The notes under the pieces were generated by a model. The model worked only from the letters and a program-made list of their open reading frames with translations. It ran no database searches and was not told the origin of the DNA. 64,000 nt of DNA from assembly GCF_014926405.1 (NCBI RefSeq), contig NZ_JACXXJ020000004.1, positions 124,001 through 188,000 on the forward strand, written 5' to 3'. Source of the DNA: Agrobacterium vitis. Its GTDB lineage: Bacteria; Pseudomonadota; Alphaproteobacteria; Rhizobiales; Rhizobiaceae. The position numbers and the translations under genes were made by a program. This document shows, one piece after another, positions 3,994-62,032 of this stretch. Each line of letters opens with the position of its first letter. Position 1 is the stretch's first letter.

Positions 3994-4005
3994 AGGGGGC
4001 GAACA

Positions 4006-5508: not shown

Positions 5509-5569
5509 GCGGTGGTCGGCATTTGTCAATATTTGCGCGTCTCACGCGCTGGAAACGGGAGGTTCCATT

Positions 5570-6997: not shown

Positions 6998-7017
6998 ACG
7001 TTTCACCATCGGTATAG

Positions 7018-7047: not shown

Positions 7048-7227
7048 TGCGATAACGATTGATTGAGCGAAGTCGATTTCACGGCCATTGTGGGATCTGA
7101 TTGCAGGAAGTGCGAGATTGGCGCACGGGCCAAATGTCAATGTTTTGGATCTATGCTGCCAGGATCAAAAATAGGTTGATTGATTCAACTTGCCGCACAA
7201 ACATAACGCCGCCCGCATATCGGTAAG

Positions 7228-7897: not shown

Positions 7898-9117
7898 ACA
7901 TGACCGAAGGGCATCGCGTTTTCGAACCTGCGGAAGGCATCCCCGTCTGGGATATCGATCCTTACGACGAGGCGGTTCTCGCTGATCCGAACGCCTATTA
8001 TGCAGAGCTGCGTGCGAAGGGGCCGCTGGTCTATATTCCGAAATATTCCATTCTCGCATCCGGCCGCTATGAGGAGACGAAGGAAATTTTTTCCGACCAC
8101 GAGCGCTTCGTCTCCTCAAGGGGAGTTGGCCTGAATGATTTCCGCTATGGCACGCCCTGGCGTCCGCCGTCGATCATCCTGGAAGTGGACCCGCCGGAGC
8201 ACGCACGCACGCGCAAGGTCATGGCGCGGGCTCTTTCCCCCAAGGCCATCTCGAAATTCAAGGAGGATTTCCATGTGAAGGCCGTGGAGATCGTGGACGC
8301 GCTTCTGGAAAAGCGACGTTTCGAAGCGGTGGTGGAACTTGCAGAGGCTTTTCCAACCGCTGTTTTTCCCGAGGCGCTCGGAATGGTGGATCACGACCCG
8401 CGTCCCCTGGTCGATTACGGCGCGATGGTTTTCAACTCCATGGGGCCGGACAACGCGCTGCGCCGCAAGGCTGGTGCCATGATCCCCGAAATCGTTCCCT
8501 GGATCATGTCCGCCTGCGCCCGCTCGCGGCTGCGCCCTGACGGCATGGGGGCGATCATTTACGAAGCGGCGGATGCCGGAGAAATCACGCAGGAAGAAGC
8601 CGGTTTGCTGATCCGCTCGTTCCTGTCAGCCGGGGTCGACACGACCGTGACCGGGATCGGCAATGCCCTTTGGTGCCTGGCATCCAATCCGGCGGAATAT
8701 GAACGGCTCAAGGCCGACCCTTCGCTGGCACGCCCCTGCTTCGAGGAGGTTCTGCGGTATACATCTCCGGTGCACACATTCGGTCGGACCGCCGCTGTCG
8801 ATACCGAAATCGCAGGTTTGAAGATCGCCGAAGGCAGCAAGATCATTTGCGTCCTTGGGGCTGCTAACCTGGACCCAGAGAAATGGGAGGCCCCGGAAAG
8901 CTTCCGCATAGACCGCAGGCCGGTAGGACATATGGCGTTCGGGGCGGGTATCCACGGTTGCGTTGGGCAGAACATCGCGCGGCTGGAACTCGAAACACTG
9001 CTCACGGTGATGACGGCGAAAGTGGACCGCATTGAATTCGACGGAGAGGTCGTCTGGCGTCCCAACAACGCAATCCATGCCCTCGACCGCATGCCTCTCG
9101 AATTCATCGCGAAATAG
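7894..9117 (+). CDS. Cytochrome P450, CYP199-like
   Basis: This 407-residue class I P450 has the I-helix oxygen-activation motif SAGVDTTVTG, the K-helix EVLRYTSP (ExxR) and the haem-thiolate loop FGAGIHGCVGQ with its cysteine ligand. Blocks such as FVSSRGVGL and PWRPPSIILEVDPP, and the Arg-Ser of LLIRSFLSAG, closely match what I recall of CYP199A2/A4 of Rhodopseudomonas palustris, which oxidise para-substituted benzoates and use this region to hold the carboxylate. A 4-alkyl- or 4-methoxybenzoate-type substrate is therefore likely. The GTG at 7894 is chosen because GAGGAGGA sits 8 bases upstream; ATG at 7900 is the alternative. It is followed 8 bases later by its ferredoxin. Confidence 0.93.
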   Translation: MNMTEGHRVFEPAEGIPVWDIDPYDEAVLADPNAYYAELRAKGPLVYIPKYSILASGRYEETKEIFSDHERFVSSRGVGLNDFRYGTPWRPPSIILEVDPPEHARTRKVMARALSPKAISKFKEDFHVKAVEIVDALLEKRRFEAVVELAEAFPTAVFPEALGMVDHDPRPLVDYGAMVFNSMGPDNALRRKAGAMIPEIVPWIMSACARSRLRPDGMGAIIYEAADAGEITQEEAGLLIRSFLSAGVDTTVTGIGNALWCLASNPAEYERLKADPSLARPCFEEVLRYTSPVHTFGRTAAVDTEIAGLKIAEGSKIICVLGAANLDPEKWEAPESFRIDRRPVGHMAFGAGIHGCVGQNIARLELETLLTVMTAKVDRIEFDGEVVWRPNNAIHALDRMPLEFIAK

Positions 9118-9125
9118 GAGATCAC

Positions 9126-10680
<1,555 letters not shown>

Positions 10681-38370: not shown

Positions 38371-39960
38371 CTAACTGGCGATGGCGTCAATCAACCGAAT
38401 CCGTCGCATGGTTGTGACCGGATAATCGCTGTCGAGAAAGCGTGCAGGCAGGAAGTCAGGCTCGAATTGTTGCAACCGGGAGACGGCTCGATCCATTTGC
38501 TCGATCATGCCCGCCTGCTTGTAAAGTGCAATCAAATACCTGAGGGGCGCTCGAAATGCGGGACGCAGAATAAGCGCTGCTTCTGCGTGACCTATGGCCG
38601 TTGCATATTCGCCCAACGCGGCGGCGGACATACAGCAAAAGAATTCGACAAAGGCCCTGTGCTCGCCTCCGCCTGTTAATGCAAGTGCGCTTAAAGCCGA
38701 TCCTTGACTATCTCTAAGCTTGTCGAGAACCAGTTCCGTATTGGATAAAATCGCCAGGTTGACTGCGTTCAGCGGGTCAAGGCTGACAGCGCGTTCAGCA
38801 AGCCGCAGTGAACCACGGCTTGAACCGCCCCCAAGATATTCGAGATGGGCCCCGATGCCCAGGATGCTGGCGCTACCAGCGTTCTCGCGCAGCGCTTCCT
38901 GTACCAGTTCCGTCGATGTGATCTTATCGTCCAGGAATGCGCTGCTGCGATGCTGGAACTGTGCCATGTTGCGCAGGAATGCCCGCCATGCCAGATATTG
39001 CGGGCGCGGATCGCGATCATAGGCATAGCGCAGATTGACGTCTGCATCTCTTAAACTTTGCCGATCAAATCGGAAGATCAAGGCCCGCGCATGATTGGCG
39101 AGCATGGCTCCCGAATGTGAGATTCCAAGCTGATCCTTCCGCTCGCGCAACGTCGAAAGAATGGCTTGGACAAGAATCCCGGATTCGTGATGCAGCAACT
39201 CTGTGTGTGATGCCGATATTTGAGTGGTTCGCGACCAATAGAGCTGTCCAGTCCCTGCATGGCTGAGGGCAATAGCCACATGGCTGTCTCGACCTAAAGT
39301 TACGGTCCGCACTGCGACAGTGAGGCCCTTGACAGGCAAGGGAGGGAGCGTGCCGCCGATGGCAGCGTGACGGGGAAAGATTTCAAAATCGTCTAAATCG
39401 CGGAGCGACGTCGTTGTCAGTGTCATCAGCCGGCTTGACGTCAATTCACTCGAAGGCTGGTTGTCCGATAGGAATTGGAAAAAAATTGCGGGTTTGGGGG
39501 CGGTATGACTGCGTAGGGCATGGGGCGGACTGATCCGTGCCTTGTCCGCAAGAGAGGCTCGTAAGTTCCGGATCCAGTCTTCAAACTCAGGGTCACGAAT
39601 GTCGAGGTCGGCAAATGCGTCCTGCTCATTATTCCAGTCATTAGAGGCGGGCATGAGCCGGTATTTTATCGAAAAGCGGGTTGGATCAAGTGCTACCTTT
39701 TCCCGATCCGCTTTCAATATCGTTTGATAGGGGCCAAACGCCCGTCGTATGTCGACGAGCGTTTGGCGAAGGCTGTCCGACCCCCTCTTGGAATCTCGAT
39801 CGCTCCACAGCTTATCCTGCAACCAAGTCCGGTTGCGGGAGTAGCCTTGTGACATGGCAAGTAACGCCACTATCCCGCGCGCCTTCGATCCTCTCGGGCT
39901 GCGGTCGCACCCATGAGAGTCGACAATCAGAAAGCGGCCAAAGATGTTTAATGACAACAT
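38371..39960 (-). CDS. SARP/OmpR-type winged-helix regulator with TPR-like C-terminus
   Basis: This 529-residue protein has residues about 1-95 resembling the DNA-binding domain of SARP-family regulators (LNIFGRFLIVDSHG, RGIVALLAMSQGYSRNRTWL, LWSDRDSKRGSDSLRQTL). The middle has no clear domain. Residues about 370-510 form helical repeats (LAERAVSLDPLNAVNLAILSN, IGHAEAALILRPAFRAPLRYL) like TPRs. No sensory or transmembrane segment is obvious. It lies 50 bases downstream of a secreted CXXCH protein on the same strand and a pentanucleotide repeat sits in that gap. Confidence 0.75.
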   Translation of the reverse strand: MLSLNIFGRFLIVDSHGCDRSPRGSKARGIVALLAMSQGYSRNRTWLQDKLWSDRDSKRGSDSLRQTLVDIRRAFGPYQTILKADREKVALDPTRFSIKYRLMPASNDWNNEQDAFADLDIRDPEFEDWIRNLRASLADKARISPPHALRSHTAPKPAIFFQFLSDNQPSSELTSSRLMTLTTTSLRDLDDFEIFPRHAAIGGTLPPLPVKGLTVAVRTVTLGRDSHVAIALSHAGTGQLYWSRTTQISASHTELLHHESGILVQAILSTLRERKDQLGISHSGAMLANHARALIFRFDRQSLRDADVNLRYAYDRDPRPQYLAWRAFLRNMAQFQHRSSAFLDDKITSTELVQEALRENAGSASILGIGAHLEYLGGGSSRGSLRLAERAVSLDPLNAVNLAILSNTELVLDKLRDSQGSALSALALTGGGEHRAFVEFFCCMSAAALGEYATAIGHAEAALILRPAFRAPLRYLIALYKQAGMIEQMDRAVSRLQQFEPDFLPARFLDSDYPVTTMRRIRLIDAIAS

Positions 39961-39993: not shown

Positions 39994-40013
39994 TATCATA
40001 TCATATCATATCA
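39994..40013. repeat. Four tandem TATCA units
   Basis: TATCA is repeated exactly four times. On the minus strand it reads TGATA x4 and its first TGA is the stop codon of the CXXCH protein. It lies 34 bases before the SARP-like regulator start. Changes in copy number would alter spacing in steps of five without changing either protein. Confidence 0.85.
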
Positions 40014-41369
40014 GCGAAGGAAAAGCTTGCCGGTTGGATCGAGTTCAAGTTTTTCAGCGCCAGGAGCAGTAATGTCAACAGGCGTCACGGTGATTGTGTT
40101 GCCGGGTTTGAAGGGGTAGGGCGGGACATCCGAGGTGGAGGCGGCATGATCAGGAAAATCGGTCTTCACCCAATTGCGGAAGGCAGAAATTCCTTTTGAA
40201 ACCTGCAAAACATAATCAAGCGACTGCGTGTCCGGCACGGGTGAATTGGACCCAATGTTTCTGAAATAGGCGGCGACGGCGGAGTCGTTGTATGGATCAG
40301 TGGGAACATCTGGTAACAGTTCCGCCGCTTGCGCCGCTTCAGGGCTGTCAGGCAAGACTGCTGTCCCCCAGTCAAGCGCGCGCTGATGACATGTAATGCA
40401 GGCGGACATTGGGTTGTCGACTGGGCCATTGGCGCGCCCGAAAAGGCCGAGATTCTGTCTCGGGAGGGGATAAAACATCGTGGCGACGGCAGGATTGACC
40501 CAGCTTTCGGTCGGCGACATGGCTTGTTCCAGATATGCTTTTGCATTCAACGCGGGGTCGCTTCCCCAGATCAGGCCAACCGGAACCAGGCGCTGATACG
40601 GCGTATCACCGGGCTGCATGGCATTATAGACGAATGTCCCGAAGAACCAGCCGTTGGGCGAACGTTTGTCCTTGATCGACAGATCAAATTGCAGAAGCCG
40701 CATCGTCATGGTGCTGCCGTCCTTTTCTCCGGCAACGTCCCACTCCTTTGACCCTGCAAGATAAGGAACGCTGGAAGGCTTTGCTGACGTGAACAGCATT
40801 TTGGCCGCCACGGCACCGTCCGCGAATGCAAAGTCAAGGGTTTTGGGAAAGGCCGGATCGGCCCAGATCTGGCCAAAACCGTAGCAGGCCACATCGTTGT
40901 AGATCCCGACAGCGAAAGTACGCTCCCAATCTGTTTGGAGCGCGTGAAGCTCCTTCGGACGAGACCACCGTTCGGTGGTCATACCGTGCAGTGGCTCCCT
41001 CAGCATGAAGAACCATGGCGCATCGCACCATTCCTCGACCTTATTATCCTGGATGCGCCAATCAATCTCGGGGCGAGCGTTCACCTTGGTGACGTAATTC
41101 AAGACGGCCTGCATATAGTCAGCGGGATTCTTGAAGGGATCGATCGTCAGCCATGGCAGCTTGCTGGTATCGGGCAAGGTCTTTGGAAAATCATAATGAA
41201 CCTGGAACTTGCGGTCTGTTTCGTGACCTTTCAGGGGCAGGCTACTGGAGCAGTCGAACTTGGCATTGGCCGCCGCTGCAAAGCTGTTGTCAATTGGGGC
41301 GGGACAGTCGGCAAAAGCAGATGAAATAGGCAAAAGAAAAAGGGCTAAACAGAAAAGAACAGTTTTCAT
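40011..41369 (-). CDS. Secreted protein with one CXXCH haem-binding motif
   Basis: This 452-residue protein has a signal peptide (MKTVLFCLALFLLPISSAFA, cleavage before DCPAP). The body has no repeat structure that I recognise. Near residue 320 is SACITCHQRALDW, a CXXCH cytochrome-c-like motif; a distal methionine ligand could not be fixed. The start at 41369 follows GGGGAGCCACA; the frame stays open to 41444 but that extension lacks signal-peptide features. It may be a periplasmic c-type electron-transfer or oxidoreductase protein. The SARP-like regulator follows. Confidence 0.72.
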   Translation of the reverse strand: MKTVLFCLALFLLPISSAFADCPAPIDNSFAAAANAKFDCSSSLPLKGHETDRKFQVHYDFPKTLPDTSKLPWLTIDPFKNPADYMQAVLNYVTKVNARPEIDWRIQDNKVEEWCDAPWFFMLREPLHGMTTERWSRPKELHALQTDWERTFAVGIYNDVACYGFGQIWADPAFPKTLDFAFADGAVAAKMLFTSAKPSSVPYLAGSKEWDVAGEKDGSTMTMRLLQFDLSIKDKRSPNGWFFGTFVYNAMQPGDTPYQRLVPVGLIWGSDPALNAKAYLEQAMSPTESWVNPAVATMFYPLPRQNLGLFGRANGPVDNPMSACITCHQRALDWGTAVLPDSPEAAQAAELLPDVPTDPYNDSAVAAYFRNIGSNSPVPDTQSLDYVLQVSKGISAFRNWVKTDFPDHAASTSDVPPYPFKPGNTITVTPVDITAPGAEKLELDPTGKLFLR

Positions 41370-41858
41370 TGTGGCTCCCCAGCTCGGTGATGTCAGACCG
41401 ATGTAAAGCCAAGAGTCTTGGATTGTAAATATGCAACCTGACACGTGTTTTACGTGTATTTTGTAACTTGTCCAGGTGTATTAACGGATGGGGTTCGATC
41501 GAAGATTGTTACCTGCCTTTCGCCGAACTTATAGAGCAGCATCACGAAAATTTCTTTGTCGTCCCCAATGAGGACTTTGAGGTCTATGGACGGTGATGCC
41601 CAGTTAATCCTGGCGCTTGAACCAGGCATCGTCTGGCAGGATCAGGCGGCAATCCAGCAGCGCCCTTTCAATTTAGGACCGCCTTGGCACGAGCAGATAT
41701 CGCCGGAATGATGCTGGATTGAGTGCAGATTTGCATCTGCAATATAATTTACAAAGCGCAAAAATAAAAAAATAGATCTTTTGGTATTTATTTTATAATA
41801 TTTATTATTCCTAAATAATAAATATTATAATGTTCCGCTATCAATAGGAGACGGCGCT
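41370..41858. other. Divergent regulatory gap with two inverted repeats
   Basis: No gene was seen. TGCAGAT-TTGC-ATCTGCA (41724-41741) is a perfect 7-bp dyad. The last 100 bases become almost pure A+T. This gap must hold promoters for the CXXCH protein (minus) and the chemoreceptor (plus). Confidence 0.5.
41794..41829. repeat. A+T-only perfect 16-bp inverted repeat
   Basis: TATAATATTTATTATT (41794-41809) is repeated in exact reverse complement at 41814-41829 with a CCTA centre. It includes TATAAT on both strands and ends 29 bases before the chemoreceptor ATG, next to its AATAGGAGACGG ribosome-binding site. Confidence 0.8.
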
Positions 41859-50110: not shown

Positions 50111-52237
50111 ATGGCCCGTTCTGTTGTTTTAGGTGCATGTCCGCATGACTGTCCTGATACCTGCTCGATCCTGACGACCGTCGAGGACGGCAAGGCGCTT
50201 GCTGTGCGGGGCAATCCAGACCATCCCTTCACCCGCGGCCGGCTCTGCGTGAAGGTCAACAATTACCAGGATCGGGTCTATAGCGATAAGCGTCTGCTTT
50301 ACCCGATGCGGCGCGTCGGCCCTAAAGGCAGCGGCCAGTTCGTTCGAATCTCTTGGGAGGACGCGCTCGAAGAGATCGCCACCCGGTGGAAGGATATCAT
50401 CGCGTCCGATGGCGCCCAGGCGATATTGCCCTACAGCTATCTTGGCACGCAGGGTATTCTCAATGGCCTCAATGTCGGCGATCCTCTGTTCAACAAGCTG
50501 GGCGCCTCGGTGAGCGAGCGCACCTTCTGTGATTCAGGCTCATGCACGGCCTATATGATGACGATTGGGCATACACCGGGTGTCGATCCCGAGAGCTTCG
50601 TTCATTCCAAATATATCATTCTCTGGGCCTGCAACACGCTCAGTACCAATTCGCATCATTGGCCCTTCATCGAGGAAGCCCGAAAGAGAGGTGCTAAACT
50701 TGTGGTGATCGATCCGGTGCGTACCCGCACTGCGCGGCTTGCCGACTGGCACATTCCGATCCGGCCTGGCACGGATGGGGCACTGGCCATGGCCATGATG
50801 CACGTCATCATCACGGAAAATCTGGTGGATCGGGACTATGTCGACAAGCACACGCTGGGATATGACGAACTGGTTGAGCGGGTGGCGAAATACACACCGG
50901 AATTCGCCTCTTTGGAAACCGGCATTCCCGTTGATGACATCCTGAAACTGGCTCGCGAATACGCGACCACGCCTGCGGCGGTCGTGCGGATCGGGGTGGC
51001 GGTGGAACGTCATGCTGGCGGTGGCCAGACGGTTCGTGCCATTGCCTGCCTGCCAGCGTTGATCGGCGCATGGAAACATGTCGGCGGAGGGCTTCTGCAA
51101 TTGCCGATCTGGGCCTTCCCGGTAAACTGGGGCGGGCTGATGCGTCCCGATCTCCAGCCTGAGAAGATGCGGGTGATCAATTCCTGGCGCCTTGGCCAGG
51201 CGCTGACGGGCGCTCTTGAACTGGACCCTCCGATCCGTGCCTTGTTCGTATACAATGCCAATCCCATGGCCATGGTCACCGAGCAGGAAAAGCTGGAACA
51301 AGGGCTGGGGCGGGAAGATCTATTCACTGTCGTCAGCGAGCATTTCATCACCGACACTGCCAGATATGCTGATATCCTTTTGCCAGCGACCACGCAGCTG
51401 GAACAGAAGGACATCATGTTCTCCTGGGGCCATCTCTATCTGTCCTACAACAATCCAGCGATCGAACCGCTCGGCGAGGCGGTTTCAAACACGGAAATGT
51501 TCCGGCGCCTTGCCAGCGCGCTGGACATCGACGATCCCTTCTTCTTCCGCTCGGACGACGAGATGATCGAAGCATCGATGGATTGGGCAAGCCCGGTTCT
51601 TGAAGGGATCACGCTCGATCAATTGAAACAGTCGGGATATATGCGATTGAACATGCCGGCTGCCGACCGATGGGCGCCGCATCGTGACGGAAATTTTCCG
51701 ACACCTACGGGCAAATGCGAATTCAAATCAACCCTCGCCGACGGCGGCAATTTCGTCGCCCCGCTGTTCAGGCAGGGTTACGGTGGCGACCAATCGGGCG
51801 AAGCGGTCGATCCGCTCCCGCATTACATCCGTCCCAACGAGAGCCCCGCAACCCATCCGGTTCTGGCGCAGCAGTATCCGCTCAGCCTGATTTCTCCGAA
51901 AAGCCACGCTTTTCTCAACTCGAATTACGGGAATCTGCCGGCGCAGATTGCGCAGGCCGGCGAGGAGCAGGCGGTGCTGCTGCACCCTGACGACGCCAGC
52001 GAACGCGGTATCATCGCCGGAGCGCCGATCCGCGTGTTCAATGATCGCGGAATGTTCGAGGCATTCGCGACATTGTCGCCCGATGTCATGCGTGGCGTTG
52101 TGGTTGCTCCGTCCGGCTACTGGCAGCGCTCCAACCGAAAGGGCGCGACCGTGCATGCCGTGACGCCGCCCGCCTATGCCGATCTCGGTCGGGCGCCGAC
52201 ATTTTCCGATGCGCTGGTCCAGGTTGCAATGGCCTGA
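50111..52237 (+). CDS. Molybdopterin-dependent oxidoreductase (MopB superfamily)
   Basis: This 708-residue enzyme has an N-terminal [4Fe-4S] motif with C10, C14, C18 and C46 (GACPHDCPDTCS ... RLCVK), domains II-III binding bis-MGD (ISWEDALEEIA, ILWACNTLSTNSHHWPFIEEA, VVIDPVRTRTARLADWHIPIRPGTDGAL) and a C-terminal beta-barrel molybdopterin domain (SLISPKSHAFLNSNYGN). No twin-arginine signal is present, so it acts in the cytoplasm. ERTFCDSGSC near residues 137-145 is a candidate region for the Mo ligand. It heads an operon with ferredoxin, ferredoxin reductase and MoaA. The substrate is unknown. Confidence 0.92.
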   Translation: MARSVVLGACPHDCPDTCSILTTVEDGKALAVRGNPDHPFTRGRLCVKVNNYQDRVYSDKRLLYPMRRVGPKGSGQFVRISWEDALEEIATRWKDIIASDGAQAILPYSYLGTQGILNGLNVGDPLFNKLGASVSERTFCDSGSCTAYMMTIGHTPGVDPESFVHSKYIILWACNTLSTNSHHWPFIEEARKRGAKLVVIDPVRTRTARLADWHIPIRPGTDGALAMAMMHVIITENLVDRDYVDKHTLGYDELVERVAKYTPEFASLETGIPVDDILKLAREYATTPAAVVRIGVAVERHAGGGQTVRAIACLPALIGAWKHVGGGLLQLPIWAFPVNWGGLMRPDLQPEKMRVINSWRLGQALTGALELDPPIRALFVYNANPMAMVTEQEKLEQGLGREDLFTVVSEHFITDTARYADILLPATTQLEQKDIMFSWGHLYLSYNNPAIEPLGEAVSNTEMFRRLASALDIDDPFFFRSDDEMIEASMDWASPVLEGITLDQLKQSGYMRLNMPAADRWAPHRDGNFPTPTGKCEFKSTLADGGNFVAPLFRQGYGGDQSGEAVDPLPHYIRPNESPATHPVLAQQYPLSLISPKSHAFLNSNYGNLPAQIAQAGEEQAVLLHPDDASERGIIAGAPIRVFNDRGMFEAFATLSPDVMRGVVVAPSGYWQRSNRKGATVHAVTPPAYADLGRAPTFSDALVQVAMA

Positions 52238-52309
52238 CTCCTTCAAGATTTTCCGGGCGGATGATGGCGTGTTCACCAAATCGTCTGCCGCATATGATGA
52301 AAGCTGACC

Positions 52310-52615
52310 ATGACCTATGTTGTAACCGACCAATGCTCCGGATGCCGCTATACGGAATGCGTGACCGTATGTCCCGTCGAGTGTTTTCATATCGATGAGG
52401 AAATGACCTATATCGATCCCGATAACTGCATCGATTGCGGTGGTTGTGCGCCTGTTTGTCCCGTCGGCGCCATTCATGCGTCATATCTCCTGCCAGCCGA
52501 CAAGCAGAAGTGGATTGAAATCAATCGTCGCCGCGCTGCAGAAACGCCGGTGGTCGCCAGTCGGCTGCCGCCCTTGCCAGGGGCTGAGGAGCGACGGCAG
52601 GCTCTGACATCATGA
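52310..52615 (+). CDS. 7Fe ferredoxin (FdxA type)
   Basis: This 101-residue ferredoxin has cysteines 9, 17 and 50 placed for a [3Fe-4S] cluster and 21, 40, 43 and 46 for a [4Fe-4S] cluster, plus extra C12 and C25, as in Azotobacter ferredoxin I. Motif blocks are CSGCRYTECVTVCPVECF and CIDCGGCAPVCPVGA. It would shuttle electrons between the reductase encoded next, whose start overlaps its stop, and the molybdoenzyme. Confidence 0.94.
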   Translation: MTYVVTDQCSGCRYTECVTVCPVECFHIDEEMTYIDPDNCIDCGGCAPVCPVGAIHASYLLPADKQKWIEINRRRAAETPVVASRLPPLPGAEERRQALTS

Positions 52616-53967
52616 CCATCCCAATTGCCGCCGCAACGAAGGCTGCTTCGCCTTTCCGCATCGCCATTGTCGGTGCAGGCCCGAGCGGCTTCTACGCCGC
52701 CGAAGCTCTGTTGAGAGCACCGATCAACATTCAAGTCGACATGTTCGAGCGGCTGCCGGTGCCCTACGGCCTGGTGCGGTTCGGCGTGGCGCCGGATCAT
52801 CCGAAGTTGAAACAGGTGACCGCCGTATTCGATCGTATTGCCAGCATGCCCGGCTTCCGCTTTGTCGGCGGGATCGACGTGGGGATCGACGTGACGATAG
52901 ACACGCTGTTTGACTGCTATCATGCCGTCATTCTTGCGACGGGTGCTGCGTTAGGTCGAAAGATGGGTATTCCTGGCGAGAGCCTGCCGGGAAGCCACCA
53001 GGCTAGCGATTTCGTCGGCTGGTATAACGGTCACCCTGACTATCGCGATTGCTGCTTCGACCTCTCCGGTGAGCGTGCGGTGATTGTCGGACATGGAAAT
53101 GTCGCTCTCGATATTGCCCGCATCCTGCTGAAGACGACCGACGAGTTGCGTCATAGCGACATCGCGGCCCATGCGCTGGAGGCCTTAGCCGAAAGCAAGA
53201 TCCGCGAGGTGCAGGTCGTCGGGCGTCGTGGCCTGCTCGAAACGCGCTTTTCGGCCAAGGAATTGCAGGAGTTCAGCATGCTCTCGGACTGCGACCCCGT
53301 CCTTGATCCGGACGATCCGGTGCCGGATGTCGCCGCTTTGCCTGATGGCATTGACGCCGAGAAAAGGGCAGCTGTCAGCATGCTGGCATCGTTCTCGACG
53401 CAGATCTCGGATCGGAAGCGGCGTTGCGTGTTCCGGTTCCATCTGCAGCCGCACGCTATCGAGGGAAGAGATCGGGTTGAGCGGATGGTATTCAGCCGAG
53501 GCTCCAGCCTATCCGGCGATAGGCCTATGCCGGTTTCCATCGACTGCGATCTCGTATTTTCCAGCATCGGCAGACGGTCTGCGCCCGTTCCGGGCGTTGC
53601 CTATGACGAGGCGAGGGGCGTTCATGCCAATGTAGCAGGACGAGGCCCTCATCAAGCGACCTATGTTTGTGGGTGGAGCAAGCGCGGCCCACAAGGCACG
53701 ATTGGTACCAACAGGGCATGCGCAGTCGAAACCGTGCAGCATGTTCTTGCCGATCTTTCCAGCAATGGTCATCGCGTGCTCGCGGATGCCGATACCTTGA
53801 TCGCAAGGCTGGCCGGCAAGCATGGTGTCCACATCGATTTCGCGTCGTGGCAGGCTATCGATGCTGCGGAATTGGAGCAAGGCCGCCTTGCTGGAAAGCC
53901 CCGAGAAAAATTTTTGTCTGTCGACCAGATGATTGCCGTCGTCACAAAGAGGCGCACAGCATGCTAA
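52612..53967 (+). CDS. NADPH-ferredoxin reductase (FprA/adrenodoxin reductase family)
   Basis: This 451-residue flavoprotein has the FAD motif [37 protein letters not shown], which is diagnostic of the adrenodoxin-reductase branch, and the NADPH motif [17 protein letters not shown] with [16 protein letters not shown]. Near the C-terminus is [17 protein letters not shown]. It takes electrons from NADPH and gives them to the ferredoxin encoded just upstream (ATGA overlap). This points to reductive, NADPH-fed use of the molybdoenzyme, or the reverse if it acts as an oxidase. Confidence 0.93.
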
Positions 53968-54986
53968 CCCCCGGGACTGCCTTGCCTTCGTGTGGTCTGA
54001 TCGACCGGTTCGGTCGCCGCGTGACTTATCTACGTCTTTCAGTGACCGATCGTTGCGATCTACGCTGCATGTATTGCATGCCGGAAAACATGACATTCAT
54101 GCCGAAGCGTGATGTGCTGTCGATTGATGAGCTGGAACGTCTTGCGGTTGCCTTCATCCGATCCGGCGTCACGCGGATCCGCCTCACGGGTGGTGAACCT
54201 CTCGTTCGCAAGGGTATCATCGACTTAATTCGCTCGCTGGGACGCAATTTGCAAGGCGGTCCGCTGCAAGAGCTGACATTGACGACGAACGGCACTCAGC
54301 TTGCCCGTTATGCTGAAGACTTGGCGCAGGCGGGTATTCGACGCCTCAATGTTTCGCTTGATACACTCGCGCCAGAGCGGTTTCGCACTTTGACGCGGGG
54401 TGGCTCGCTTGACACGGTGCTTGAGGGCATCGATGCGGCCCGTGCAGCGGGGCTTGCGGTCAAGATCAATACGGTGGCACTCCGGGACAGCACCGAACAG
54501 GAAATCCACGATCTTATCGCGTTTGCCCATGGCCGCGGCATGATGCTTTCTCTGATCGAGACGATGCCGCTTGGAGATATCGGTGTTGACCGCATCGATC
54601 AGTATCTTCCACTCAACGAATTGCGCAAGACGATTGAAACCCGCTGGTCACTGACAGATATTCCCCTGCGGACGGGTGGCCCGGCGCGCTATGCCCGCAT
54701 TGCCGAAACCGGAGGAACAATTGGCTTCATCACGCCGCTGACACATAATTTCTGCGAAGGCTGCAACCGTGTTCGCGTAACCGCTGCCGGTGTGCTTCAC
54801 ACTTGCCTGGGGCAGGAAGACGCCGTTGATCTCAAAGCGGTGATGCGCCGGTCGCCATATGATCAGGATCTGTTTGCCGCAATCAACCAGGCGATCCTGG
54901 ACAAATCGCGTGGGCACGACTTTGCGATCGACCGAACCAACGCCCCGATAACGATCAGCCGGCATATGTCCGCCACCGGTGGCTGA
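53961..54986 (+). CDS. moaA: GTP 3',8-cyclase MoaA
   Basis: This 341-residue radical SAM enzyme starts molybdopterin synthesis. It has the SAM cluster CDLRCMYCM (C32, C36, C39), [15 protein letters not shown], the C-terminal cluster motif [22 protein letters not shown] and the terminal Gly-Gly essential in the family. ATG 53961 overlaps the reductase stop (ATGCTAA). A copy of moaA inside a molybdoenzyme operon suggests a dedicated paralogue that supplies cofactor when the enzyme is induced. Other moa genes are not in the window. Confidence 0.95.
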
Positions 54987-55320: not shown

Positions 55321-56106
55321 TCACAGCGACAGCTTTCGAGCAGCCCGCTGCGCTGCGGCCTTTGCGTCATCCATGGCGGGCTTGCGGATTTTCAGGAAGG
55401 CATTGGCGATGTTAGGACCGGCCTTGTCGGGACTGCCAGCGTCAAAAGGCGGCTTGGGATCATATTCAATGATGAGCTGGATGCGCTTTGCAAGGTCTTC
55501 CCCGCGCAATCTGGCAACCACGGAGAGGCCAAAATCGATCCCTGCGGTGGTCCCGCCGCCTGTGATGAGATTGCCGTCCTCTACCACGCGCTCATTGACG
55601 GGAATTGCACCGAATGTTGGCAGGAGGTCGCGGACGTTCCAGAGCGTTGTTGCTCTCTTGCCCTTGAGTAAACCTGCCGCGCCGAGGACCAGTGATCCCG
55701 TGCAGACGGCGGTCACATATTTTGCGCCAGCTGCCATCTCCCTGACAAAGGCAAGCGTCTCCGCGTCTTCCATCAGTTCAGTCGAGCCGACAAGTCCACC
55801 AGGAATGAAGAAGACATCGACGTTTCGAGGGCATTTCTTGAACGTGGTCGTTGCTGTGACGGGAATACCGACATCCGTCGATACCGGCGTCTGGTCTTTC
55901 CAGACCAGGTGAATCTTTCCCCTGGTGATGTTGAAAACGGTCATCGGACCGAGCAGATCCAGCAGGATCATCTTAGGGTGGACCAGCATGGCAAAAACCG
56001 GTCCATCCGGCGAGAGGGGTGGCGTTTGAGCCGATGCAATGCCGTTGTTCAGCAGCAGGCCTGCGCCTGCTGCTGTGAAAAGCACATTGAAGTCCCGACG
56101 GTTCAT
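55321..56106 (-). CDS. Tat-exported DJ-1/PfpI family protein, isonitrile-hydratase-like
   Basis: This 261-residue protein has a twin-arginine signal (MNRRDFNVLF, hydrophobic core, ASA cleavage before Q27), so it should work in the periplasm. The remainder is a class I glutamine-amidotransferase-like domain. The nucleophile elbow VTAVCTGSLVLGAAGLL (Cys135, Thr136), Asp50 in HPKMILLDLLGP, RATTLWNVRDLL, ERVVEDGNLITGGG and PPFDAGSPDKAG match the isonitrile hydratase (InhA) branch as I remember it from Pseudomonas putida. It closes an operon with a copper chaperone and SCO protein and overlaps SCO by ATGA. Other DJ-1 family roles cannot be excluded. Confidence 0.85.
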   Translation of the reverse strand: MNRRDFNVLFTAAGAGLLLNNGIASAQTPPLSPDGPVFAMLVHPKMILLDLLGPMTVFNITRGKIHLVWKDQTPVSTDVGIPVTATTTFKKCPRNVDVFFIPGGLVGSTELMEDAETLAFVREMAAGAKYVTAVCTGSLVLGAAGLLKGKRATTLWNVRDLLPTFGAIPVNERVVEDGNLITGGGTTAGIDFGLSVVARLRGEDLAKRIQLIIEYDPKPPFDAGSPDKAGPNIANAFLKIRKPAMDDAKAAAQRAARKLSL

Positions 56107-56762
56107 GATCGTTGTCCTGGTGAAGGGAGAATGAGGCTGTCGCTCAGCTGCTGTCCGGCGGTCTTTGCGCCAGGACCGCTCGAAAGTAGCTCCCGGATTT
56201 TCGTGATGGCCTGTTGCTTGTCGAGACCGTAGGGAATCATGTCCTTCAGCCGACCGTCTGCGCCGACGAGAAGCAAGGACACCGTGTGGCTCATGTGGTA
56301 ATCGCCATCTTCACTCGGCAGCTTGCTCGCATGGATCATCCAGCCATCGACGACCTTCTTCATTTCCTCCGGTTTCCCGGTGATACCAGTAATGCGGTCC
56401 GTAAAGGCCGTGACATAGCCGTGCATGACCTCCGGCGTGTCGCGCTCCGGGTCGATCGAGAAGAAATAGGCCTTCAGGTCTTTGCCCTCAGGGCCCAGCG
56501 TCTTCAGCCAATCGGCCACTTCATAGAGCGTTGTCGGGCAGACTTCCGGGCAATGGGTATAGCCAAAATAAACCAGTGCTGGCGAACCATGAAAAATTGA
56601 CGGGCCGACCGGATTTCCCCGGTCGTCGGTGAGCTCGAACTGTGTGCGAAACGGACCCGGCCGTGGGCTGTCATAAGCAACCCAGATCATGACGCCGATC
56701 AAGGATGTCACGAACAGCCCGGCTACGGCGAGTGCCAGAATTATCAGTGGGCTGCGCGTCAT
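56103..56762 (-). CDS. SCO1/SenC family copper-binding protein
   Basis: This 219-residue protein has an N-terminal membrane anchor (LIILALAVAGLFVTSLIG) and a thioredoxin-like periplasmic domain with YFGYTHCPEVCPTTL (copper-binding CxxxC) and the distal histidine in DYHMSHTVSLLLV. It delivers copper to cytochrome oxidase CuA or controls thiol state. Both ends overlap neighbours by ATGA. It follows the copper chaperone fusion, the normal partner of SCO proteins. Confidence 0.94.
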   Translation of the reverse strand: MTRSPLIILALAVAGLFVTSLIGVMIWVAYDSPRPGPFRTQFELTDDRGNPVGPSIFHGSPALVYFGYTHCPEVCPTTLYEVADWLKTLGPEGKDLKAYFFSIDPERDTPEVMHGYVTAFTDRITGITGKPEEMKKVVDGWMIHASKLPSEDGDYHMSHTVSLLLVGADGRLKDMIPYGLDKQQAITKIRELLSSGPGAKTAGQQLSDSLILPSPGQRS

Positions 56763-57682
56763 TTTCCATGATCCTTGTGCACGTCGTGCCCGCCGTGATC
56801 CTCGGCGCCCTCGACCATGACGGTACCTTCAAAGCTTGCAAACAGCGCCAGTGTCTTTGCGTCGACATGGGCTTCAGCCTCCGCGAGCTTGGCGGAGAGG
56901 GCGCTTGCGTCATTGTCTGAGAGGCCCATTTCCTTAAGGGCAGTGGCTTGCTTCAAGCCATCGCCGCTGCACAGATGAATGCTCCACACATCGCCCTTCT
57001 TCTTCAGCAGCGCACGGCCACCACGACCCTCTTGGGTCCAGCCGGCGATGGCCCAGTCCTCCTGCACAACGACAGGGGCGACGGAGAGAGGCTTGTCGGC
57101 CGTCGCGAACGCGGCTTTCAACTTGGCCGGAATGGCTTCTTGAGGATCGGCAGATTGCGGCGGCATCTGCATTGCGGCGTGGTCGCCGTGCTTTGCATGG
57201 CCGTCGTGCTTCATTTCAGGCGCACCACCAGCCGGTGAACCAACGGAGAATTCGACCTCGACCGATCCCGCCTTTTCGAAAGTGAGAGTTGCCTTGACGG
57301 TTTCACCCTCCTTGAACGCCTGTTGCACGTTCATGAACATCACGTGGTAGCCGCCGGGCTTCAGCTCTATGGTTTGGCCTTTGGGAATGACAATGCCGCC
57401 CTGAAGCTCGCGCATGATCATGACGCCAGCATCGATTTTCATCTCGTGGAGCTGGATCGATCCGGCCCGGTCCGAGGTTGCGCTCACCAGCCTGTCGTCT
57501 GTGCCGCCTTCATTGGTCAGCTTCAGATATCCGCCGCCGACCTTGGCACCCGGCAGCATGGCACGGGCGTAGGGATGACCAATTTCGATGTCGCCGACCT
57601 TGAACTCGTGGGCCAGGGCAGGTGAGACAAATGCGAGCGTTGCAATCACAATGGTCGCAAATCTGCTGGTTCGGGATTTCAT
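56759..57682 (-). CDS. PCu(A)C copper chaperone fused to a copper-uptake-associated domain
   Basis: This 307-residue exported protein (signal ending VSPALA before HEFK) contains two parts. Residues about 25-155 are a PCu(A)C domain with the copper-site pattern LHEMKIDAGVMIMREL then GGYHVMFM. A His/Met-rich linker follows (MKHDGHAKHGDHAAMQM). Residues about 190-290 form a second domain (WAIAGWTQEGRGGRALLKKK, WSIHLCSGDGL) of the type seen beside copper uptake genes. The C-terminus is again His-rich (HGGHDVHKDHGK). PCu(A)C proteins carry Cu(I) to SCO and CuA. It overlaps the ABC ATPase and SCO genes. Confidence 0.92.
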   Translation of the reverse strand: MKSRTSRFATIVIATLAFVSPALAHEFKVGDIEIGHPYARAMLPGAKVGGGYLKLTNEGGTDDRLVSATSDRAGSIQLHEMKIDAGVMIMRELQGGIVIPKGQTIELKPGGYHVMFMNVQQAFKEGETVKATLTFEKAGSVEVEFSVGSPAGGAPEMKHDGHAKHGDHAAMQMPPQSADPQEAIPAKLKAAFATADKPLSVAPVVVQEDWAIAGWTQEGRGGRALLKKKGDVWSIHLCSGDGLKQATALKEMGLSDNDASALSAKLAEAEAHVDAKTLALFASFEGTVMVEGAEDHGGHDVHKDHGK

Positions 57683-58464
57683 GGTGTTTCCTCCATAGGG
57701 CTTGTTTCAATTGAAGTGGGTGAAAGCGGTAGAATGACCGGGATTCCCGACTGGCTCTGGATAAACTCAGCTTCGATCCCATAGACGGATCGCAGGATGT
57801 CCGGCGTAATCACCGTGTCGAAAGCCCCGTGTCCGATGAGCCTACCGCCGTTCAGAAGCATGACCGTGTCGCTATGGCGGGCTGCCAGGTTGAGATCATG
57901 GACGGCGATCACGACCAGTGCGCCAGTCCGCTCCACGTAATCCCTCAGTCGTTTGAGAACATGCATCTGGTGCCGGACGTCCAGAGCGCTGGTCGCCTCA
58001 TCGAGCAGCAACAGTTGCGGTTCGCGCAGCAGGCGTTGTGCAAGCAGCACCAATTGTTGCTGACCGCCGGAAAGGGTCAGCATGCTGCGGGTTGCGAGAT
58101 CGCTGATCCCGAAGAAGGCCAATATCCGAGAAGCCGCCGCAAGCATGTCACTGGCAATCTGCCAGCCAAGCTGCTCATGACGGCCGAGCAGGACGACTTC
58201 GAGCACGGACAAGTCAGCCCTCACCTGGCATTGCTGCGGCATGAAACCGATATCGCGGGCGCCGACCGGCTTGCCGTTCCACAGAACCTTGCCTTTCGCG
58301 GGCACCTGCCCGGCGATCGCGTTCAGCAGGGTGGACTTGCCGGCACCATTCGGGCCGATCAGGCCAACGATCTGCCCAGCAGCAATAGAGGTCGATACAC
58401 CTGAAACAATCGTGGTGCGCCCATGTTGGACGCCTACGTCTCTCAAGACCAGCCGCGCCGTCAT
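57679..58464 (-). CDS. Metallophore-type ABC transporter ATP-binding protein (FecE/HmuV family)
   Basis: This 261-residue ATPase has Walker A GPNGAGKSTLLNAIAG, signature TLSGGQQQLVLLAQRLL, Walker B PQLLLLDEATSALDVRHQ and the switch region VIAVHDLNLAARHSD. It belongs with FecCD permeases. MTARLVLRD at 58464 is the start, since ATG overlaps the permease stop; the frame extends further without a start site. Four-base overlap with the copper chaperone gene downstream. Confidence 0.94.
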   Translation of the reverse strand: MTARLVLRDVGVQHGRTTIVSGVSTSIAAGQIVGLIGPNGAGKSTLLNAIAGQVPAKGKVLWNGKPVGARDIGFMPQQCQVRADLSVLEVVLLGRHEQLGWQIASDMLAAASRILAFFGISDLATRSMLTLSGGQQQLVLLAQRLLREPQLLLLDEATSALDVRHQMHVLKRLRDYVERTGALVVIAVHDLNLAARHSDTVMLLNGGRLIGHGAFDTVITPDILRSVYGIEAEFIQSQSGIPVILPLSPTSIETSPMEETP

Positions 58465-59525
58465 GTCAGGCCTCGCTGACCGCGTTTGGCGATGACGACA
58501 AACAGCATCGGTACACCTGCGATGGCCGTGATGATGCCGACCGGAATGACGGCAGCCGGAGAGATGAATTTTCCGAACACGCACGCGCCGATCAGAATGA
58601 TGGCTCCCGTTAGGGCTGCCAGCGGCAGGGAGAACCGATGGTCCTCTCCGACGAGTGCGCGGGCAACATGCGGTGCGATGAGCCCAACAAAGCCGATGGT
58701 TCCGACGAAGGAGACGGCTCCGGCTGTCAACAATGCCACGATCAGGAAGGTATTCCGACGGATTTTCTCAACCGATAGCCCGAGGCTTCGGGCATTGGCA
58801 TCTCCGAGACGCAACGTGGTCAAGGCCCAGGTGCTACGGGCAATGAAGGGAAGGCAGGCGCATGCAATCGCAGCACTCACTGTGACGCTCGTCCAGCTTG
58901 ACTTCAAGAGGCTGCCGAATAGCCAGAAGACAATCTGCTGCAAGACTTCCGGTGACGCCAGAAACTGAAGCAGGGACTGGAGCGATTGGAAGAAGAACAA
59001 CACCGCAATGCCTCCAAGCACGAGGATTTCCGGTGTCGCGCCACGAAGCCGCGCGATCAGATAGACCAGAGCACAGGCCACCAGGGTCATCACAAAGGCG
59101 CAGGCGGGGATGACGATGAAACCGGGCAGCGGGATGAGCGAGCCGAACATGATCGCTAATGCCGCACCAAAGCCTGCCGCTGCCGAAAAGCCGAGTGTGA
59201 AGGGGCTGGCCAGCGGATTGCCAAGGATCGTCTGCATTTGCAGGCCGGCAAGGCCGAGGCAGGCGCCGACCAGGACGCCCATGACAGTTTGCGGCATGCG
59301 CAATTGCCACAGGATCGTTGCAACCATGCGGTCGTCACCGGCAGGCCCGGCGAGAAGCCCATGCCATACTTCGGCAAGCGGCATGCCGGATGGACCGGTG
59401 GTGAGATCGAGCACCATCAGCAAAACAAGGCAAATGAGGGCGCCGATCATGACTAAAGTCCGACGAGCGGATGCGCGGCGATAGCCGTCGCGCATCCCAT
59501 CAATCTCTGCGGAAAAGGTCGTCAT
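58461..59525 (-). CDS. FecCD family ABC transporter permease
   Basis: This 354-residue membrane protein has about ten spans. Family blocks are LRMPQTVMGVLVGACLGLAG (the conserved R-lP-R region is near), QTILGNPLASPFTLGFSAAAGFGAA, LGDANARSLGLSVEKIR and GTIGFVGLIAPHVARALVGEDHR. Such permeases move iron-siderophore, haem or cobalamin across the inner membrane; here the operon also encodes copper proteins. It overlaps both neighbours by ATGA. Confidence 0.94.
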   Translation of the reverse strand: MTTFSAEIDGMRDGYRRASARRTLVMIGALICLVLLMVLDLTTGPSGMPLAEVWHGLLAGPAGDDRMVATILWQLRMPQTVMGVLVGACLGLAGLQMQTILGNPLASPFTLGFSAAAGFGAALAIMFGSLIPLPGFIVIPACAFVMTLVACALVYLIARLRGATPEILVLGGIAVLFFFQSLQSLLQFLASPEVLQQIVFWLFGSLLKSSWTSVTVSAAIACACLPFIARSTWALTTLRLGDANARSLGLSVEKIRRNTFLIVALLTAGAVSFVGTIGFVGLIAPHVARALVGEDHRFSLPLAALTGAIILIGACVFGKFISPAAVIPVGIITAIAGVPMLFVVIAKRGQRGLT

Positions 59526-60625
59526 TGTCCGTTCGTTTCATAAGGGAGAACAAACACACCGTCGGCCTTGATCGGCAGCCAATTATTATAATAATCAGCA
59601 ATGTTCTTTGCCGGATCGACGTTCTTGAAGGCATCCGGATAGAGCTGTTTGGCGATATATTGCGCATACACATAGTCGGACAGCGTGCGTGCGCCGCCAT
59701 GGTAGATCGCATGCACGCCGCCCTCTTTTACGGCTGGCAGATCCGACCAGCCAGGACGGGCGAGATAGGCCTTCATGCGTTGGCGGGTAACAGCCGGATC
59801 AGCCCCAAAGCCGACCTGCACCGATTGCGGTTTGTTCAACCACTCCGACCCGCCCAGAAAAATCAGGTCCGGCTTTTGTGCCAGGACATATTCCGGGCTT
59901 AGCGGTCCCCAATTGCCGATCTGTCCCTTGGCAATGTTATGGCCGCCAAGCCTGTCGACCAGCGCGCCCCACATCGTATCGCCGTAGGAGTTCCCGACTT
60001 CATCCGGCCCTTTCTGAGCCAGTTCGACATAGACCTTCTTGTCCGTCGGGCCGGCTTTCTGGATGCGGGCCTGAACGTCTGCCATCGCATCCTTGTAGTT
60101 TTTGGCGAGCTTTTCGGCGCGGTCTTGCGTCCCCATCAGCTTGCCGAGAGCCAAGGTGGATGCGACATGTTTCTCGACCGTCTGGGCATTGTAGTCGAGC
60201 GTCACGATTGGAATGCCAGCCGCCTCTAACTGCTTGGTGCCTTCGCCGAGCGCGTCATAGGACCAGGCCGCCAGAATAAGCAGGTCGGGCTTGGCCGCAA
60301 TCACCTTCTCGATCGAAAATGTATTGTCTTCGGTACTATCGATGTCGGGAATGGAGGCGAGCTTTGGCAGCGCCTTTTCATAGGCCGCGAACTGGTTTGG
60401 CCGCCAATCCTTCCAGGGGGAGAGGGAGAGGGCTACGACTTTGTCGAGCGCGCCGGGTCCGGCGATGGCAAGATAATCCTCATAATAGAAGCTGAGGACA
60501 ACACGTTGCGGTACTTTGGGTACGGTGACGGTGCGTCCCTTGACGTCGGTAACTGTAATGTCGGCAAAGGCGCTGGCTGTCATGGCCATCAGGCCGACAA
60601 AGGCGGAGAAGACTAGTTTTTTCAT
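59522..60625 (-). CDS. ABC transporter periplasmic binding protein (FecB/metallophore family)
   Basis: This 367-residue protein starts at 60625 after AAGGAAACTCC and has a signal peptide (MKKLVFSAFVGLMAM...ASAFA before DITV). It shows the family III binding-protein fold: VTDVKGRTVTVPKVPQRVVL, KPDLLILAAWSYDALGEGTKQLEAAGIPIV, KPDLIFLGGSEWLNK and a YPDAFKNVDPAKNIADYY C-terminus. It presents a metal chelate to the FecCD permease. An in-frame upstream ATG at 60805 with its own GGGGGA site would add 60 residues with a hydrophobic beginning; the downstream start is preferred because it gives a normal signal peptide. Confidence 0.9.
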   Translation of the reverse strand: MKKLVFSAFVGLMAMTASAFADITVTDVKGRTVTVPKVPQRVVLSFYYEDYLAIAGPGALDKVVALSLSPWKDWRPNQFAAYEKALPKLASIPDIDSTEDNTFSIEKVIAAKPDLLILAAWSYDALGEGTKQLEAAGIPIVTLDYNAQTVEKHVASTLALGKLMGTQDRAEKLAKNYKDAMADVQARIQKAGPTDKKVYVELAQKGPDEVGNSYGDTMWGALVDRLGGHNIAKGQIGNWGPLSPEYVLAQKPDLIFLGGSEWLNKPQSVQVGFGADPAVTRQRMKAYLARPGWSDLPAVKEGGVHAIYHGGARTLSDYVYAQYIAKQLYPDAFKNVDPAKNIADYYNNWLPIKADGVFVLPYETNGQ

Positions 60626-60823
60626 GGAGTTTCCTTGCGCTAAATCTTGGCGGGTGGGCGATCCTGCGCCAACCACAATGTTAAAAGGCGGGCAGCTCAG
60701 CGCGCGCGTGAGCGGCTTGACGCGCCTGACGATGAGATAGTCGAGGCCGATCACCGTCCGCAGAACGGCACCGGTCAGCGGTAAAAGAAGCGAGATGGCG
60801 AACATGATAACTGTCCCCCAGTG

Positions 60824-61540
60824 TTATGACGGTTGAAGAGAGGCTTTACGCTTTCCGGATGTCTGCCTGGCAAGCGAAGGCTGGCCTGAGGCGAGAAACC
60901 GCAAGGCGTTCTCGTCGGCTATGGTGATGATTTCGGGATGGTTGAAGGTGAGTATACCGCTGCGCTTGAAGCTGTTGAGGCAACGACTGACGGTCTCAAG
61001 TGTCAGTCCTAACCAATCGGCAAGATCGGCTCTGGTCAGGAAAAGCCTGAATGTCGTTTTCCGCAGCTGCGAAGCCTTCGACGTCCGGGCAAACCTCTCA
61101 GCGAGATCGAGGAGGGCAAACGCAACTTTTTCCTGGGCCGTTTTTCGGCCGAGCAAGGTCACTAATGCTTGCGACCGGTGCAGCATATGCTTGAGCGCAC
61201 TACCGAGGGCGTGATCGGTGAGCTGCGCAACCGGTTGAATCTGCGTAAACGCCAAGGTTTCGGCACAGCAATTGACAGAGCTGCCAATCGATAGTCCGAG
61301 AAAGGAGCCCGGCCCAAGGATATCAAGTATTTGTCTGCGACCGTCGTGCAGCGATTGATAGAGTGCGATGCACCCGTCCTTGAGTAGAAATTCGCTTGAT
61401 CGTGGGAAATCATGCAGGAAAACTCTGGTGCGCGGTGCAACGAGCTTGCACATCTGAGATTTACTGCCGATTTCGGCGGGAATCAGAAAATCGATTGGGA
61501 ATACGGGCGATACTTCACCCAATGCTGTCGTGTTGAACAT
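60824..61540 (-). CDS. Crp/Fnr family transcriptional regulator
   Basis: This 238-residue regulator has a cyclic-nucleotide-binding-like beta-roll (FLLKDGCIALYQSLHDGRRQILDILGPGSFLGL) and a C-terminal helix-turn-helix with LTRADLADWLGLTLETVSRCLNSFKRSGIL, where E and SR are the FNR/FixK-type recognition residues. Four cysteines are present (C31, C57, C91, C92), including an adjacent pair that could bind metal or respond to redox. It is 198 bases upstream of the binding-protein gene on the same strand and probably regulates this operon. Confidence 0.9.
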   Translation of the reverse strand: MFNTTALGEVSPVFPIDFLIPAEIGSKSQMCKLVAPRTRVFLHDFPRSSEFLLKDGCIALYQSLHDGRRQILDILGPGSFLGLSIGSSVNCCAETLAFTQIQPVAQLTDHALGSALKHMLHRSQALVTLLGRKTAQEKVAFALLDLAERFARTSKASQLRKTTFRLFLTRADLADWLGLTLETVSRCLNSFKRSGILTFNHPEIITIADENALRFLASGQPSLARQTSGKRKASLQPS

Positions 61541-61636: not shown

Positions 61637-62032
61637 TCAGGCAATAGTGCCGGTCGGGGGGCCACGTGGGCTTGCGTTGGGAGGAAACAGCTGACGGTAA
61701 AAGGCTTCACGACGGATCGGAATATGAATTTCTGTTGCAACGACGATTGCTTGGCCAATTGAATCGGCAGGGGTCGGCAAGACAATGGACGCCGTTATCC
61801 GGCAGGCTTCGCAACCTGTGCCGAGATCATGGCTAGGATGCTTTCCCTCGTCATGCTGGCTTGGTAGGCAAAGAACCGGGAGGGTCCCGTCGGGCAGGGT
61901 ATATGATGCAACTTCTGAAAGCGGAATTGCCGATTCGATGACGGGTATCTTATGGGCAAATCCGACGCACAACAGGGCAATGGCGCATATGATGCGCACC
62001 ATTTTCGCCATGTCTGACACGGTTGCCGCCAT
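61637..62032 (-). CDS. Small exported protein of DUF2946-like type, copper-locus associated
   Basis: This 131-residue protein has a hydrophobic N-terminal segment (MVRIICAIALLCVGFAHK), then VLCLPSQHDEGKHPSHD and GTGCEACRITASIVLP, a cysteine/histidine-containing middle typical of short DUF2946-like proteins that occur beside copper uptake genes. Ends in a polar tail. The start MAATVSDMAK follows AAGGGGATCAATCTGG; ATG at 62011 or 62002 is also possible. It is 96 bases upstream of the Crp/Fnr gene and probably first in this operon. Confidence 0.7.
   Translation of the reverse strand: MAATVSDMAKMVRIICAIALLCVGFAHKIPVIESAIPLSEVASYTLPDGTLPVLCLPSQHDEGKHPSHDLGTGCEACRITASIVLPTPADSIGQAIVVATEIHIPIRREAFYRQLFPPNASPRGPPTGTIA

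Follow-up and report, generated by a model that had tools for sequence, protein, structure and literature searches.

An isocyanide-hydratase-family protein with a Tat signal at the end of a copper-import operon of Agrobacterium vitis, and its probable role in copper acquisition

The window, i.e. the whole stretch of 64,000 nucleotides of Agrobacterium vitis DNA that was analysed, carries on its minus strand an operon for copper handling and metal-chelate import. Its features are given below from the last gene to the head of the operon.

55321..56106, minus strand: DJ-1/PfpI protein of the isocyanide hydratase (ICH) family with a Tat signal, D50, C135 and T136, and an insertion in the PGG-L loop; last gene of the operon
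56103..56762, minus strand: SCO1/SenC family copper chaperone (Pfam SCO1-SenC, 160 bits); its stop overlaps the DJ-1 start (ATGA)
56759..57682, minus strand: PCu(A)C copper chaperone fused to an NF033672 'copper uptake system-associated' domain (Pfam PCuAC, 134 bits; NF033672, 128 bits, cut-off 50)
57679..58464, minus strand: ABC transporter ATPase of the siderophore/heme/B12 importer type (profile scan from the second codon)
58461..59525, minus strand: FecCD-type permease (Pfam FecCD, 283 bits)
59522..60805, minus strand: periplasmic metal-chelate binding protein (Peripla_BP_2; FhuD-like); nearest NCBIfam model a ferrichrome/ferrioxamine B transporter, 139 bits, under its cut-off of 374
60824..61540, minus strand: Crp/Fnr family regulator (profile match; same annotation in the S4 plasmid copy), preceding the chain of six genes
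61637..62032, minus strand: CruR-type (DUF2946-like) copper-responsive leader gene, 131 residues (CEAC, 45 residues, RGPP, 5 residues to the stop)

Six of these genes (binding protein, FecCD permease, ATPase, PCu(A)C fusion, SCO and DJ-1/PfpI) are chained by five ATGA overlaps, among them the overlap of the DJ-1/PfpI and SCO genes that the initial annotation had described; the copper-operon setting proposed there was confirmed through the PCu(A)C, SCO and FecCD importer families. For the ATPase, the ATG start at 58464 was chosen because it overlaps the FecCD stop and gives the length annotated in the S4 copy. The start of the binding protein is uncertain, the alignment of its relatives beginning at about residue 33-81. 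The same operon is present on plasmid pAtS4e of Allorhizobium ampelinum S4.

The leader gene heads the operon, ahead of the Crp/Fnr gene, and was absent from the list of the initial annotation. Its match to Pfam DUF2946 (E-value 4e-4, 21.5 bits) lies under the cut-off of 23.7 bits; it has a CXXC and a RAPP-like motif 45 residues apart and is the first gene of a copper operon. According to portions of PMC9426467, the CXXC-RAPP spacing in CruR of Bordetella pertussis is also 45 residues, and copper sensed via the CXXC switches off the downstream copper-import genes. The spacing of 45 residues is kept in 9/9 other CruR-like ORFs from loci with exported copies of the DJ-1/PfpI gene (those of L032 and L112 being near copies of the window's leader); at importer loci without the enzyme gene, ten of the 11 CruR-like ORFs are spaced 44 to 46 and one (L296) is without the motif pair. 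Because of the leader and the NF033672 domain fused to PCu(A)C, the copper link of the operon is stronger than the initial annotation could know. Copper-dependent control by the predicted CruR leader, and likewise the roles of PCu(A)C and SCO, would follow by analogy with published relatives.

The ORF at 55321-56106 (minus strand) is real and its product has 261 residues. The dN/dS ratio of the gene is 0.09 in the comparison with the Shinella copy L033 and also with L034; with the S4 copy, which is nearly identical and thus offers few differing sites, it is 0.28. The N-terminus (MNRRDFN...ASAQ) starts with MNRRDFN, followed by a hydrophobic stretch and by ASA ahead of residue 27. These features of a Tat substrate (RR motif, hydrophobic stretch and cleavage site) were identified by reading and with a hydrophobicity script, rather than with SignalP; the script also found the same RR signal motif in the S4 and CG118 copies. 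Asp50, Cys135 and Thr136 were located at the positions previously claimed, and the Tat-type signal is supported. Three Agrobacterium vitis plasmid records match the protein with 98.8% identity across 92% of its length.

Pfam recognises DJ-1_PfpI alone in the protein (104 bits). When compared with the PDB using phmmer, it matched 3ewn (5e-63) and ICH (2e-62), other ThiJ/DJ-1 entries following from 4e-19 and human DJ-1 at 3e-11. The domain is 51% identical both to ICH of Pseudomonas fluorescens (110/216) and to 3ewn (104/204), and the predicted fold superimposes on P. fluorescens ICH (PDB 3non) at 0.9 A over 225 residues (49% identity), closer than on DJ-1. D50, C135 and T136 align to Asp17, Cys101 and Thr102 of ICH, and the whole ICH domain, including the C-terminal helices, is retained. 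The match to the ICH family is far beyond chance, and the long blocks of similarity to isonitrile hydratase noted in the initial annotation are borne out in fold, sequence and catalytic residues. Thr102, which stands beside Cys101, is presumably catalytic in ICH. For Asp17 and Cys101, catalytic roles are described in portions of PMC10971408, which also report that ICH irreversibly hydrates isonitriles to N-formamides and that isonitriles are a known class of chalkophores; by its title, one cited work concerns a Streptomyces thioluteus isonitrile hydratase active on diisonitriles.

The nearest NCBIfam models are those of glyoxalase III/deglycase, which would fit a glyoxalase/deglycase-like enzyme of periplasmic carbonyl or protein repair that is linked to copper via oxidative damage. 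This is considered very improbable: such matches are far under cut-off (the best, TIGR01383, scored 71 against 131 bits), the protein has Asp where DJ-1 has Glu18, and its fold is nearer to that of ICH. Glyoxalase/deglycase and FtrA-type annotations were rejected, all NCBIfam matches lying far below their cut-offs. Human DJ-1 binds copper, and the neighbours of the gene encode copper chaperones, both of which favour a DJ-1-like protein that holds Cu(I) at the conserved Cys/Asp site for onward transfer, with no catalysis on a ligand; conservation of the catalytic residues and of the ICH-type domain argues against such a chaperone, which is judged improbable, and an enzymatic rather than a binding role is held to be probable.

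The genes beside homologues of the protein were surveyed for copper markers, defined as PCu(A)C, an NF033672 domain, SCO, CruR, a FecCD importer, CopC-CopD or YcnI on the same strand within 6 kb. A script assigned each copy to the exported or the non-exported group, and inspection by eye then moved L201, L058 and one copy of L051 to the former and L127, L168, L169 and L252 to the latter. Among the nearest 80 loci (from genomes with record titles), a copper marker was found at 22 of the 50 exported and none of the 31 non-exported copies (one locus has both kinds), counts that are not independent of the copper seeds because the window and the nearest loci had supplied those seeds. Among the hosts in this set are Rhizobium, Shinella, Aureimonas, Bosea, Methylobacterium, Bradyrhizobium, Sphingomonas, Limnohabitans, Hydrogenophaga, Rubrivivax and Ideonella.

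As the marker seeds derived from the nearest loci, a separate sample was drawn, with matches at an E-value of 1e-40 or better in 22/247 family, 52/386 class and 60/397 phylum genomes (the three draws overlap and each includes the window's own genome, whose copies were excluded from the sample counts). Copper markers occurred at 4/17 exported and 0/122 non-exported loci (p 1.6e-4), and at 7/17 against 0/122 (p 1.1e-7) when a TonB receptor within 1.2 kb was also counted; one locus (L129) has both exported and non-exported copies, and L235 was counted as non-exported though it looks exported. After dropping L201, which was judged to be the same record as one seed locus, and moving L235 to the exported group, the counts were 3/17 against 0/121 (p 0.0016), or 6/17 against 0/121 (p 1.4e-6) with TonB receptors. 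Taken alone, the family part (1/5 against 0/17) and the phylum-only part (1/6 against 0/53) are not significant, whereas the class part is (2/6 against 0/52, p 0.009; 5/6 against 0/52 with TonB receptors). The TonB receptors beside exported copies are of the siderophore-receptor type, eight of the ten scoring over the cut-off. At ten of the 17 sampled exported loci, the visible neighbourhood contains no copper marker and no adjoining TonB receptor. Beyond the same-strand and 1.2-kb limits, the non-exported L246 has a SCO gene at a distance of 61 bp on the opposite strand, and the non-exported L233 and L234 each have a TonB receptor at 1.7 kb. The recurrence of the gene beside PCu(A)C/SCO genes that the initial annotation had asked about was thus found, the same kind of gene being present there in other genomes. 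Around seven plasmid-borne homologues, the six annotated neighbourhoods held no copper genes (two of these six copies being exported by script), and the seventh is unannotated.

A weaker DJ-1-domain gene (GATase1-AraC type) adjoins 24/31 non-exported against 4/50 exported copies among the nearest 80 loci, and 65/122 against 5/17 (p 0.075) in the separate sample. Both kinds occur in the window's own genome, where the second copy (C5:3188474, L141) is non-exported and adjoins a gene of the GATase1-AraC type.

Among 149 putative Pseudomonas genomes, assigned to that genus because they are close to the P. fluorescens and P. syringae proteins, nine match an exported copy at an E-value of 1e-60 or better, in 12 places of which nine were examined. 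Three of the nine copies look exported; one (L274) is without a marker, and the other two, which have an RR signal and are 91-92% identical to 3ewn, lie behind a TonB receptor, PepSY_TM and CopC also being close to one of these two. In locus L273 (positions 1814-9421) the order is PepSY_TM, TonB receptor, the 92% identical 3ewn homologue, TonB receptor and CopC, which supplies a context for the uncharacterised structure 3ewn.

In a tree of 117 rows, the side with the window's protein (72 rows) and the side with ICH (45 rows) are split with an SH-aLRT support of 98. The ICH side consists of 42 non-exported rows, ICH lying on this side, and three exported rows; the other comprises every copper-linked (24) and every TonB-linked (11) exported row, a further 27 exported ones, nine scored non-exported, and PDB 3ewn. 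A tree of 61 rows (copper-/TonB-linked exported copies, 24 drawn non-exported rows, ICH and 3ewn) likewise separated ICH from 3ewn, from every exported row and from four rows that had been scored as non-exported (although one of them, L235, looks exported), with bootstrap/SH-aLRT values of 100/99. The export label changes nine times on the 117-row tree, against a mean of 38 when shuffled. An independent-pair test gave four supported pairs, too few independent changes for significance, and the association of export with copper rests largely on one deep split in the tree. The one-residue insertion in the PGG loop is present in 42/42 copper-/TonB-linked exported, 23/33 other exported and 5/159 non-exported copies, and absent from ICH.

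Because of the split and the PGG insertion, the protein belongs to the ICH family only in the wide sense; in the comparison with characterised isonitrile hydratases envisaged in the initial annotation, the family assignment therefore held, whereas the protein was placed in a branch of its own, in which most copies are exported and the PGG loop is altered. P. fluorescens InhA/ICH (3non) shares the domain, the Asp/Cys/Thr set and the C-terminal helices at 49-51% identity, but its chain begins right at the domain, its PGG loop is shorter, and it clusters with mostly non-exported copies, many of which adjoin a gene of the GATase1-AraC type. PDB 3ewn (ThiJ/PfpI, Pseudomonas syringae) falls within the same mostly exported branch as the window's protein and has a PGG loop of equal length; it differs in having Ser in place of Thr after the Cys and in its sub-branch, and the title of the entry names no function. 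Since the protein stands outside the characterised ICH branch and has one residue more in its PGG loop, its substrate may differ from that of ICH. To our knowledge, no member of its branch has been assayed.

A search with the binding protein gave matches in 13/218 family and 15/318 class genomes (the window's own in both), corresponding to 29 different places. The FhuD-like binding protein with FecCD and ATPase (59522-60805, minus strand, and the genes following) is a recurrent copper-linked importer and possibly serves as the inner-membrane importer of copper chelates. The enzyme gene accompanies it at two of the 29 places, in the window's own genome and in G171; no ICH-level gene was seen at the other 27 (L292-L318), eight of which are stretches shorter than 12 kb at contig ends, and 13 of the 27 carry copper markers. 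One of them, from another genome of the window's genus (G107, L295), has the importer with a CruR leader. NF033672 was matched in 12/199 family genomes, the window's own being the sole one with the enzyme gene in that locus; it was not seen at the other 11/11, one of which is a stretch of only 3.2 kb. Neither the importer operon (0/27 other loci) nor the NF033672 locus (own genome alone among 12) is a fixed home of the gene, and both possibilities were ruled out. The initial annotation had named absence from orthologous copper operons as evidence against its reading, and the gene is missing at 27/29 importer places, which touches that point. As it is absent from most importer and NF033672 loci, the enzyme is regarded as an optional addition to copper import. 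In the second importer locus with the gene (G171, a member of the Rhizobiaceae; L120, positions 5715-8572), two exported ICH-type genes of different sub-branches flank a PCu(A)C gene, and after them come a CruR-like ORF and the copper importer genes.

Such an optional occurrence also fits a defence gene, and portions of PMC10971408 and PMC10792529 describe ICH as probably defensive; the exported protein would then detoxify periplasmic isonitrile antibiotics that strip copper from oxidase assembly, protecting rather than feeding copper delivery. This is considered unlikely: the gene ends a copper-uptake operon, not a stress or efflux locus, and the non-exported paralogue of the same genome (L141), beside its GATase1-AraC-type gene, is the better candidate for general defence.

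Isonitrile synthase (PF05141) was not found in the window's own genome, a negative that alone shows little because 14 controls also gave no match. It was likewise found in none of 27 genomes with exported copies, some being draft assemblies or derived from metagenomes (G955, one of the 27, probably duplicates the genome of L058); as a positive control, it was found in one of five putative Pseudomonas genomes. No isonitrile synthase was found beside ICH-family genes at any examined copy. The sole weak synthase match (E-value 2e-9), at an NF033672 locus without the enzyme gene (L289), was to a frame of 457 residues in the seed locus, not the synthase frame of 347 residues. A self-made isonitrile chalkophore is disfavoured on these searches, silent controls included, and the ligand would be foreign, since PF05141 was unfound in the own genome and in the 27 others. 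XanA of the Aspergillus fumigatus xanthocillin cluster is, according to portions of PMC5974471, also an ICH homologue linked to isonitrile metabolism; unlike the window's gene, whose genome yielded no synthase, it is fungal and stands among the producer's own genes.

The failure to find a synthase in the host genomes, together with the separate branch and its PGG-loop insertion, also agrees with an exported branch of shifted specificity that hydrolyses or hydrates a different periplasmic copper ligand (e.g. a nitrile, thioamide, imine or amide chelator), for which the copper linkage counts equally. Retention of the Asp/Cys/Thr set and of the full ICH domain with its C-terminal helices speaks against a different ligand, and the neighbourhoods point to no alternative one; this explanation is considered rather unlikely.

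The preferred reading, with a probability of roughly 40%, is that a Tat-exported, Cys-nucleophile enzyme of the ICH family serves copper acquisition by attacking the ligand of an imported, probably foreign, copper chelate, most likely an isonitrile. With gene order, export signal motif, catalytic residues, fold and a recurring copper context as observed, a role of the exported protein in copper acquisition is well supported and very probable. The importer, the siderophore-type TonB receptors and the published import of chelated copper by CrtA point to uptake of a copper chelate, and the simplest view of an exported enzyme of the ICH type next to copper chaperones is that it destroys the ligand and passes the copper along; release of copper from the ligand we infer only. 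An isonitrile is a plausible though unproved substrate, its chances being put a little short of even.

Under low copper, the CruR leader would permit expression of the operon. A copper chelate from another organism would enter the periplasm and be handled by the FhuD-like binding protein and the FecCD/ATPase importer; Cys135 would attack the ligand with Asp50 as acid/base, and the ligand, most likely an isonitrile, would be converted to an N-formamide unable to retain Cu(I). Copper set free in this way would pass to PCu(A)C/NF033672 and SCO, and from these to cytochrome oxidase.

The closest published parallel considered is the CruR-CrtA-CrpH operon of Bordetella pertussis, in which, according to portions of PMC9426467, PMC12914433 and PMC13038864, a CruR leader governs import of chelated copper for heme-copper oxidases; PepSY_TM is also present in a Shinella operon with the enzyme gene. 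For the Bordetella system no DJ-1/ICH gene is mentioned: hydratase, ThiJ and DJ-1 occur 0 times in the main text of PMC12914433, and ThiJ 0 times in PMC9426467. CrtA imports chelated copper, no high-affinity ligand having been found and use of foreign metallophores being allowed for in portions of PMC12914433. Among mostly the best-ranked papers of a literature search, no title concerned an isocyanide hydratase that is exported or encoded in a copper-uptake operon.

Copper import by Gram-negative bacteria, and the exit of copper from a tight periplasmic chelate, are poorly known. A mostly exported ICH branch tied to copper loci provides a testable class of ligands (isonitriles), and one member of the branch, 3ewn, is already solved. 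The wider proposal of a chalkophore-breaking enzyme in the Gram-negative periplasm, in which the exported ICH branch would destroy foreign isonitrile chelators after import and copper would be pirated for respiration, is offered tentatively, with the odds leaning against it; if true, the ICH family, currently assumed to be defensive, would gain a nutritional function as well.

Elsewhere in the window, two neighbouring long ORFs at 38371-39960 and 40011-41444 (both minus strand; 529 and 477 residues) are without a Pfam match. Genes for a molybdopterin oxidoreductase, a ferredoxin, an FAD oxidoreductase and MoaA lie in a row at 50111-54986 (plus strand), convergent with the copper operon.
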